Assembly (NCBI RefSeq): GCF_005435165.1
Contig: NZ_SGUC01000004.1
Coordinates: 62,001-126,000 of the forward strand
DNA: 64,000 nucleotides
DNA from: Halorubrum sp. GN11_10-6_MGM
GTDB taxonomy: Archaea; Halobacteriota; Halobacteria; Halobacteriales; Haloferacaceae
Direction: 5' to 3'
Positions 52,421 to 54,997 of the stretch are shown here, in pieces. Both the position numbers and the translations under genes were made by a program. How positions within the stretch are numbered: position 1 is the stretch's first letter; each line of letters starts with the position of its first letter. The notes beneath the pieces are model-generated. The model had not been told where the DNA came from and did not search any database. It was given only the letters and a program-made list of their open reading frames with translations.

Positions 52421-54997
52421 ATGAATTCCGGTCCCGACGACTCGCAGTCCGATGCCGGTGCGGCCGCACGCGACGCGTCGGGATCGCTAGTGACCGCGAG
52501 TCGCATCCTGTTCGTCGACGACGAACCGGGGGCGGCGGACCTCGCCGCGACCCACGTCGAGCGGCTCGTGGACGGGATCGAGACCGTGACGCGGCTGTCG
52601 CCGGACGAGGGGCTGGACGTAGTCTGCGAGGGGTGCGTCGACTGCGTCGTCAGCGACTTCGACATGCCGGGGTCCAACGGGCTCGAATTCCTCGAATCGG
52701 TCCGCGAGGTCGACCCCGAACTTCCCTTCGTGCTGTTCACCGGGAAGGGGAGCGAGGAGATCGCGAGCGAGGCCATCTCCGCCGGCGTCACGGACTACCT
52801 CCAGAAGGGCGCCGGCCGCGACCGATACGAGATGCTCGCCAACAGCGTCGCGAACGCGCTCGGTCGCCGTCGGGCCGAGCGCGACCTCCGCGAGGTGAAC
52901 GCGAAGGTGACGGCGATCCACGAGTTCGCGACGGAGCTGGCGTCGGTGACCGATATCGAGACGGTGTTCGATCGCACGGTCGACGCGGCCGAGGAGATAC
53001 TGGAGTTCGACCGGTGCGTCACCGCGCGCCGCTGCGGCGACCGGGTCGTCCCGGTCGTCCTCTCCGAGAGCGTCACCGAGGACGAGGTCCGGACGTTCGA
53101 CGTCGGCGAGGGGGTCGTCGGGACGACGGTCGCCGAGGAGGAGACGATAGTGGTAGACAATCTCAGCGTCGACCCCGCGGACCCGGACGACTTGGAGGAC
53201 CCCGCCTCCCCGGGTCGGACGTCGACCCGAGCGAACCGGCGGGAGGGGTCGGCGGTGGCGGACCCGGTCGCCGACGACATCCGGTCGGCGATCAGCGTCC
53301 CGATCGGCTCTCACGGCGTACTCCAGGCCGTCTCGAACGGCTACGCCGCGTTCGACGAGCACGACGTCGAGGTCGCCGAGCTGCTGGCGGCCCACGCGGC
53401 CAACGCCATCGAACAGATCGAGACCGAGAACGCGCTTCGGCGGGAGCGCGACCGGCTGACCGCGCTGTTCCACGACCTCCCGCTTCCGGCGGTTCGAACC
53501 GTCCCGACGGCCGAGGGCGGGCGTCGCCTCGACGCCGCCAACGAGGCGTTCGAGGAGACGTTCGGATACGGCGCAGACAGTGAGTACGAAGCGGTCCGCG
53601 ACGAGATCATCCCCGACGGCGCCGACCGGCTCCACCCGGGGCCGGTGCTCGAACGCGACGAACCCGAGCGGCTCGAGGTGCGCCGCCGGACCCCCGACGG
53701 GATGCGCGACTTCATCCTTCACGTCATCCCGGTCAAGCAGTCGGACGAGACCGTCATCTACAGCGTCTACGCCGACATCGACGACCAGAAACGCGTCGAG
53801 CGGACGCTGCGCCGGCTCCACGCGACGACCCGCGAGATGTTCGGCGGCGAGGACCGCGAGGAAATCGCCGCGGTGGCGACGCGCGCGGCGATCGACATCC
53901 TGGAGTTCCCGAGCAGCGGCGTCCGGCTGTACGACCCCGAGACGAACGTCCTGCTCCCGACCGCCATAAGCGAGGAGGCGACCGCGGCGCTCGGCGAGCG
54001 GCCCGCCTTCGGTCCGGGCGACGGACGGGTCTGGGAGGCGTTCGAGTCCGGACAGCCGATCGTGGTCGACGACCTCGACGCGGTCGACACCGCGGTCGGA
54101 TACGGCGAGCATCGGAGCCTCCTCGCGGTCCCGCTCGGCGAGCACGGCGTGATGCCATTAGGCTCGCGCAAGCCGGGGTTCTTCGACGAGACGGACGTCC
54201 AGCTCGCCCGCGTGCTCGCCGCGAACGTCACGGTGGCGCTCGACCACGCCCAACGGACCGAACAGCTGCGCGACCGCGACGCCGCGCTTCAGCGGGAGAT
54301 CGACCGGTTAGAGAAGTTCGCCGGCCTCGTCTCTCACGACCTCCGGAACCCCCTCAACGTCGCCGCCGGCCGGACCGAACTGGCCGCGTCGCTGACCGAC
54401 GACCCGGCCGTCCTCGACGAGCTCGACCGGGTCAAGGACGCGCACGAGCGGATGACACAACTGATAGACGACCTCCTCGCGCTGGCGCGACAGGGCCGGA
54501 CGGTCGACGAGATCGCGTCCGTCCCGCTGGACGAGGCCGCCGAGCGCGCGTGGCGCACCGTCGACACCGGGGACGCGACGCTCGACGTCTCGGCGGCGAC
54601 GTCCGCGGTCGAGGCGGACCCGGAGCGACTCCGCACCCTGTTCGAGAATCTGTTTACGAACAGTGTCGAGCACGGCTCGACTAGCAGCCGGACTTCGTCC
54701 GGCGACAGCGTGGAACACGGCTCGGACCGAGACGACGACGCCCGGACGGCCGGGGATCTCACCGTCACCGTCGGGTCGCTCCCGGACGGGTTCTACGTCG
54801 CGGACGACGGGAGCGGCTTCGACATCGATCCGGACGAGGCGACGGAGTACGGGCGTTCGAGCACGGCGGACGGGACGGGGTTCGGTCTCGCGATCGTGCG
54901 CGAGATAACGGCCGCACACGGCTGGGAGCTGTCGATCGACGGGGGCGACGCCGACGGCGCGGACGGCGCTCGGTTCGAGTTCCGGGGGCAGAACTGA
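52421..54997 (+). CDS. Histidine kinase with receiver, GAF and PAS domains
   Basis: An 858-residue soluble kinase: receiver (about 25-150, phosphoacceptor Asp79 in VVSDFDMPG), GAF (158-343), PAS (346-460), GAF (465-613), phosphoacceptor His639 in LVSHDLRNPLN and an HATPase domain. The ATPase N box NSVEHGS is followed by an insertion that ends in a second SVEHGS, so part of the N box is duplicated; DDGSGF and GTGFGLAIV follow. A TATA-like CTAAAATTA lies about 27 nt before the ATG at 52421. No response regulator is adjacent. Confidence 0.9.
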   Translation: MNSGPDDSQSDAGAAARDASGSLVTASRILFVDDEPGAADLAATHVERLVDGIETVTRLSPDEGLDVVCEGCVDCVVSDFDMPGSNGLEFLESVREVDPELPFVLFTGKGSEEIASEAISAGVTDYLQKGAGRDRYEMLANSVANALGRRRAERDLREVNAKVTAIHEFATELASVTDIETVFDRTVDAAEEILEFDRCVTARRCGDRVVPVVLSESVTEDEVRTFDVGEGVVGTTVAEEETIVVDNLSVDPADPDDLEDPASPGRTSTRANRREGSAVADPVADDIRSAISVPIGSHGVLQAVSNGYAAFDEHDVEVAELLAAHAANAIEQIETENALRRERDRLTALFHDLPLPAVRTVPTAEGGRRLDAANEAFEETFGYGADSEYEAVRDEIIPDGADRLHPGPVLERDEPERLEVRRRTPDGMRDFILHVIPVKQSDETVIYSVYADIDDQKRVERTLRRLHATTREMFGGEDREEIAAVATRAAIDILEFPSSGVRLYDPETNVLLPTAISEEATAALGERPAFGPGDGRVWEAFESGQPIVVDDLDAVDTAVGYGEHRSLLAVPLGEHGVMPLGSRKPGFFDETDVQLARVLAANVTVALDHAQRTEQLRDRDAALQREIDRLEKFAGLVSHDLRNPLNVAAGRTELAASLTDDPAVLDELDRVKDAHERMTQLIDDLLALARQGRTVDEIASVPLDEAAERAWRTVDTGDATLDVSAATSAVEADPERLRTLFENLFTNSVEHGSTSSRTSSGDSVEHGSDRDDDARTAGDLTVTVGSLPDGFYVADDGSGFDIDPDEATEYGRSSTADGTGFGLAIVREITAAHGWELSIDGGDADGADGARFEFRGQN
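54660..54724 (+). repeat. In-frame stem-loop duplication in the kinase ATP-binding domain
   Basis: Two 20-bp near-identical copies (54660-54679 and 54705-54724, both reading ACAG.GT.GA.CACGGCTCG with three differences) flank a perfect hairpin, GCCGGAC-TTC-GTCCGGC (54687-54703). The protein reads NSVEHGS-TSSRTSSGD-SVEHGS, a 15-residue in-frame gain directly after the N box. Confidence 0.8.

Follow-up and report, generated by a model that had tools for sequence, protein, structure and literature searches.

Rickettsia palindromic elements (RPE; Ogata et al. 2000, as summarized in PMC10969869 and PMC2996958) are short palindromic sequences, put at ~150 bp, that lie in frame in unrelated housekeeping genes and are read as extra peptide. 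In archaea, palindromic coding repeats that have become part of protein genes are known from M. jannaschii through a 2005 report cited in PMC2996958 and PMC2229807. From Allomyces mitochondria, Paquin et al. (2000, as cited in PMC7218506) described double-hairpin elements with two hairpins per short unit and evidence for mobility. REP, BIME and REPIN sequences with RAYT (PMC3733652, PMC2817692, PMC3116915) are short dispersed palindromes that form arrays and have intergenic copies. PARCEL repeats (PMC2996958) are palindromic coding repeats in tandem arrays; they are amphipathic, 25 residues long, and, according to their authors, were absent from the archaeal genomes then available. Among the haloarchaea, Haloquadratum walsbyi has the transposase-free mobile repeats called MITE, PATE and SMR. 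In the account of these (PMC3119063), palindromes occur close to the ends of PATEs, neither PATEs nor SMRs duplicate their target, and the 80-bp SMR HqIRS41 is termed exceedingly short.

Here we describe a feature in a histidine kinase of Halorubrum sp. GN11_10-6_MGM that is very likely a copy of a non-autonomous double-hairpin element dispersed in the Halobacteriales, the left end of which nearly spells the end of the kinase N box. The element works like RPEs and the M. jannaschii in-frame repeats, a likeness in mode of action. Compared with RPEs as summarized in the sources above, it is 42 bp long, has two separate hairpins and GAC on both sides, is archaeal, and forms tandem arrays; it also seems to re-create a catalytic motif. 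The M. jannaschii repeats belong to another lineage and the Allomyces elements to fungal mitochondria, and both are set beside the haloarchaeal element by description; the latter has two hairpins joined through a short spacer in one short dispersed unit. REPs are by definition mostly extragenic, whereas in-frame genic copies of the haloarchaeal element are common beside intergenic ones, and two genomes with many copies lack the Y1 transposase. None of the Haloquadratum repeats is described, in the passages of PMC3119063 consulted, as a 42-bp in-frame coding unit. The GAC on both sides of the LeuC inserts (see below) would argue against the PATE class, and inspection by eye found no long inverted repeat at the element ends, AGC...GGC. 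Unlike PARCEL repeats, the haloarchaeal units have 15-17 residues and encode a polar Ser/Gly/Arg/Asp peptide. We found no published description of the element in our searches of an open-access library.

The kinase unit and its relatives at other N boxes

Within the window, the whole 64,000-nucleotide stretch of DNA analysed here, a 45-bp in-frame unit at 54660-54724 duplicates SVEHGS behind the N-box Asn of the kinase (Table 1). The earlier note had reported a 20-nt direct repeat, a 7-bp hairpin and a duplicated SVEHGS in the N box, and all three are present. The direct repeats (54660-54679 and 54705-54724) are 20 nt each, 17/20 identical and spaced by 45, and lie at the C-terminal end of the N-box helix. 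That reading overlooked that the first repeat copy runs on into CTCGAC, which gives a perfect 7-bp palindrome. The first copy is itself a hairpin, and therefore the 45-nt unit is a double hairpin. We used two covariance models, R1 of N-box units and R2 of generic units; the sole clear R2 match in the window is at 54659-54709 (52.8 bits, E = 6.8e-13).

Table 1. Host gene and parts of the copy in the window.
Feature	Position	Strand	Basis
Host gene: response regulator-GAF-GAF-HisKA-HATPase_c histidine kinase, 858 aa	52421..54997	+	Pfam Response_reg, GAF_2/GAF, HisKA, HATPase_c
AAC, the N-box Asn codon, in place of the GAC target codon of other sites	54659..54661	+	Analogy with LeuC empty site
42-bp double-hairpin element AGT...GGC, encoding SVEHGSTSSRTSSG	54662..54703	+	R2 match; boundaries by LeuC analogy
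Hairpin a, GTCGAGC-ACG-GCTCGAC, encoding VEHGST; 5' arm and loop double as N-box end	54665..54681	+	
Spacer TAGCA; family consensus NGGCA	54682..54686	+	
Hairpin b, GCCGGAC-TTC-GTCCGGC	54687..54703	+	Perfect 7-bp stem
GAC; this codon recurs at the right end of inserts	54704..54706	+	LeuC comparison
Downstream N-box-end copy, AGC GTG GAA CAC GGC TCG; degenerate in many orthologues	54707..54724	+	

An AlphaFold2 fragment model (mean pLDDT 72) places the N-box helix at fragment residues 113-131 and a strand from residue 160, with low confidence at residues 133-156, which correspond to the insert. On this model the insert would form a surface loop, probably disordered, behind an intact N-box helix. 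By itself the window copy has an unexceptional folding energy (z = -1.8), and an Rfam scan of loci that included the window returned tRNAs only. The weight against chance rests on sequence comparison, that is, on a second kinase with the unit at the same site, on matches across the order and on covariation in the stems.

A search of haloarchaeal genomes for the repeat at kinase N boxes, which the earlier note had proposed, returned such matches. The second kinase, in the same genome, carries a near-identical unit at its N box (NSVEHGSTGSRTESGDSVEHGG). The duplicated-VEHG DNA pattern matched 16 of the 52 genomes of the genus Halorubrum and 120 of 392 Halobacteriales genomes (43 of 95 genera), counts that include a few matches plainly not the element (e.g. 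L040-L042); the reversed pattern, used as a control, gave 0 matches. A stricter unit pattern, applied to one genome per bacterial or archaeal species, matched 74 stretches, all of them haloarchaeal by record title. In IMG/VR, 103 viral contigs fit the duplicated-VEHG pattern, and none of the in-frame ones, which were inspected, is the element.

Units in N boxes are 45, 48 or 51 nt long, and tandem arrays occur. In the 48-nt class the stem CCTNNN...NNNAGG encloses a loop resembling TCGCAGGCTC, and the three inner stem pairs change together; in the N-box arrays L065, L079 and L080, units of this class (CCTNNN, 10-nt loop, NNNAGG) alternate with units of 45 and 51 nt within one array. Thirty orthologues of the window kinase hold 0 to 3 units each. 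On the kinase tree, presence or absence changed at least 4 times and unit number, which was taken from a regular expression and is approximate, at least 11 times. Decayed copies are still present in some orthologues (L089, L090, L105). In the genome of the window, a further HATPase, that of the C88:57640 kinase (L017, ~1550-1660), lacks the double hairpin but has a different tandem repeat behind NAIEHG in this loop, TTPDASATPDDAP.

Generic copies, in-frame inserts and empty sites

The generic unit reads (GAC)AGC, then GAGGGAC, GAGGCGC or GTGGCGC with its complement, then NGGCA, then GCCGG..CCGGC, and ends in GAC. The 42-bp element has two 7-bp hairpins with 3-nt loops and NGGCA between them. 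At E <= 0.01, R1 matched all 52/52 genomes of the genus, and the closed genome G042 has at least 5 dispersed copies with equal R1 scores. At E <= 1e-4, R2 matched at least 224 of 293 Halobacteriales genomes, from at least 70 of 87 genera. It had no match outside the order in a 148-genome sample of the phylum, where 19 of 19 positive genomes were Halobacteriales.

Copies are found both in genes, in frame, and in intergenic hairpin arrays. The intergenic arrays of alternating hairpins in G042 (L360-L364 and L371-L387) lie inside longer recurrent sequence, some of them closing with GGCGACTGCCCCTTTGAGTCCC, and are often close to TTTATAA-like motifs. The draft genome G005 has several matches less than 300 bases from the start of a contig (C2, C11, C22, C24, C29 and C37), which suggests that assemblies break at these repeats.

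The palindromic DNA repeat is read in frame within unrelated conserved genes; by hand count, about 20 distinct non-kinase genes contain such an insert. Ten hosts are backed by Pfam: Aconitase (LeuC type), adh_short, AFOR, Ribosomal_L2_C, CBS, PNP_UDP_1, E1-E2_ATPase, tRNA-synt_1 with the leucyl editing domain (LeuRS), Beta-Casp and CobN; dihydrolipoamide dehydrogenase is a further supported host. Against Haloarcula L2 (1s72), the insert in ribosomal protein L2 (uL2) is one clean 15-residue gap. All genic inserts inspected, which came from the best-scoring copies, share one frame, roughly D-S-E/V-x-x-x-S/T-G-S/N-R-x-x-x-G/D-D. Frame calls by third-position GC were set aside, as they counted many copies twice (both strands, one-base offsets) and took some intergenic arrays for genes. 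In three genomes of different families, a beta-CASP-type protein (L444, L445, L446) has an insert at nearly the same turn (HVLVD/DG), one of the three being shifted by one Asp codon.

Orthologues with empty sites were found for LeuC and for the window kinase. Within the genus, three leuC genes (G000, G004 and G018) are 45 bases longer; in 30 other orthologues, each at least 90% identical, the matched region is 45-48 bases shorter. The empty LeuC site reads TTCGAGGAC directly followed by GACCCC, and the filled site reads TTCGAGGAC-AGCGAGGCGC...GTCCGGC-GAC-GACCCC, with flanking codons that vary slightly (14 matched loci: 3 filled, 11 empty). By this comparison the LeuC insert is the 42-bp element with GAC on both sides, +45 bp in total, and GAC recurs as the left and right flank at many further genic sites. 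By a script criterion, 15 distinct 39-mers are identical in differing flanks, fewer than 15 of them independent, as several are neighbouring array units or come from the same kinase. The clearest are those shared by L423 and L426, which are different genes from two families of the order, and by intergenic copies of G042.

The Y1 transposase (PF01797, IS200/RAYT type) had no match in G015 or G029, which carry at least 36 and at least 38 copies; totals given here come from capped searches, and per-genome counts are lower bounds because a limited number of candidates was scored in each genome. Therefore, a resident enzyme of the IS200/RAYT type is not needed at present, and mobilisation by a resident RAYT/IS200 is not supported. 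The element is best read as dispersed, transposase-less and, from comparison of one genome per species, probably mobile.

The earlier note had proposed a small expandable, mobile coding element that tolerates one specific site. The first part agrees with the 0 to 3 units of the orthologues and, for mobility with the qualification just given, with the empty sites and the identical units in unrelated genes. The second part does not hold, as the same element stands in frame in ~20 other genes and in intergenic arrays. Nor is the feature just a divergent loop of one protein, with neither length variation nor DNA-level similarity among kinases; the data contradict that on both counts.

The N-box end and the source of its copies

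The left end of the generic element, GACAGCGAGGGACACGG, encodes DSEGHG, and the N-box end, AACAGCGTGGAACACGG, encodes NSVEHG. The generic left end agrees with NS-type N-box DNA (NS-VEH) at 14 of 17 positions, and agreement of at least 14/17 has a frequency of 8e-6 in the window; other N-box codon choices give 11-12/17 only. N boxes would thus be a favoured surviving site because the left end of the element nearly spells the N-box end. We then compared the first and last N-box copies in 21 related orthologues with units. The His is kept in 21/21 first copies and in 12/21 last copies (p = 0.0013), and VEHG is intact in 19 first and 10 last copies (p = 0.006). On our reading, the element in histidine kinases seems to give back part of the ATP-binding motif into which it is inserted.

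The duplication of the N-box motif makes the insertion point ambiguous, since insertion after VEHG aligns equally well. In N boxes the target codon is AAC instead of GAC, and the Ala/Ser codon in front is likewise common to the units and the host site; these copies could therefore come from gene conversion among kinases or from a longer target duplication. That gene conversion among kinase paralogues, after one or a few original insertions, was the main route for the N-box copies is a serious possibility, though one that we favour less than its opposite. It would account for the identical 39-mers in different kinase contexts and for the host Ala/Ser codon matched on both sides of the units, and N-box DNA is in itself shared homology; generic hairpins within N-box arrays (L114, L366), however, also point to fresh insertion.

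Pairing in the stems and the proposed history of the element

In 163 units that continue with Ser-Thr, Val and Ser have complementary wobble bases (G-C 74, C-G 71, A-T 3, T-A 2), as do Glu and Gly in 155 units (A-T 82, G-C 73; GAA/GAG with GGT/GGC). All of these changes are synonymous. The terminal VEHG copy of each array, which lies outside any hairpin, has no pairing link (A-C 24, A-T 8, G-C 25). Over 14 stem pairs in 42 units, a set that includes two L114 rows chosen for hairpins with a different peptide, 96.9% of cells were paired compared to 83.3% after shuffling, absolute percentages that are inflated because the searches demanded VEHG and one of them also part of stem b; this upward bias spares the free wobble positions. 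Ten pairs had both bases changed, and none of the 500 shuffles attained any of the observed measures. The N-box array of L114 contains intact hairpins GAGGGAC-ACA-GTCCCTC (EGHSPS) and GAGGCGC-TAC-GCGCCTC (EALRAS). The palindrome is retained in some units that have lost the peptide, indicating that the constraint acts on the nucleic acid.

This covariation could stem in part from hairpin template switching instead of selection. A history in which template-switch correction during replication produced it neutrally, with no selection on a mobile form, is rather unlikely in our judgement: it fits the multi-base paired changes between copies (GAGGGAC, GAGGCGC and GTGGCGC with matching arms) and the few wobble intermediates, but it leaves the dispersal unexplained, and decayed copies persist in the orthologues named above. 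Selection of the hairpins as mRNA elements, for transcript stability, pausing or protein binding, is very unlikely. Within genes the double hairpins hold to a single orientation and frame, as such a role would have it, yet orthologues differ in presence and intergenic copies exist. A helix functioning in mRNA is expected to put up with G-U. Among 123 distinct 45-nt units, the stem mismatches summed over pairs are 20 G-T and 17 A-C, with G-U not above A-C, and therefore we read the paired form as a DNA palindrome and infer that it looks like DNA rather than mRNA.

Slippage or tandem duplication of the kinase N box, with the hairpin incidental, is improbable in the extreme. N boxes do have tandem arrays of variable copy number, but the same double hairpin stands in unrelated genes and intergenic DNA, LeuC shows the whole unit cleanly inserted, and the non-kinase copies contradict slippage as the sole explanation; local expansion after insertion is probably real, without explaining the origin. 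Least probable of all is that the VEHGST repeat is a functional kinase extension whose DNA likeness reflects protein selection and ancestry, for although the first copy conserves VEHG, synonymous sites covary pairwise, hairpins outlast the peptide, last copies decay and some orthologues have no unit.

For the dispersed double-hairpin element, we propose the following history. A copy would insert at a GAC-like codon and leave GAC on both sides, which lengthens the sequence by 45 bp (15 codons) without shifting the frame. Movement or recombination of copies may proceed through DNA hairpins, either single-stranded or cruciform. The survivors would be inserts read as flexible acidic D-S-E-x-x-x-S-G-S-R-x-x-x-G-D peptides, and only these would survive because the other frames yield basic or hydrophobic peptides. 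A copy landing behind the N-box Asn would re-create the displaced motif, with small paired changes in both arms turning EGHGPS into VEHGST. The first copy could then serve as the N-box end, and the displaced downstream copy could degenerate or grow into arrays.

For us, the evidence is evenly balanced on the full account, in which a 42-bp selfish element was repeatedly inserted in the histidine-kinase N box and now encodes the functional end of the motif, the original copy being free to decay, and in which core proteins across the Halobacteriales, a ribosomal protein among them, gained surface loops from the same element. If its mobility is true, this would be a very small (42 bp) mobile family that writes itself in frame into proteins across at least 70 sampled Halobacteriales genera. 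It would generate variation in the surface loops of essential proteins, and its inserts would form a natural map of insertion-tolerant protein sites. The N-box case, if true, would give a concrete instance of a catalytic motif furnished in part by a mobile element.
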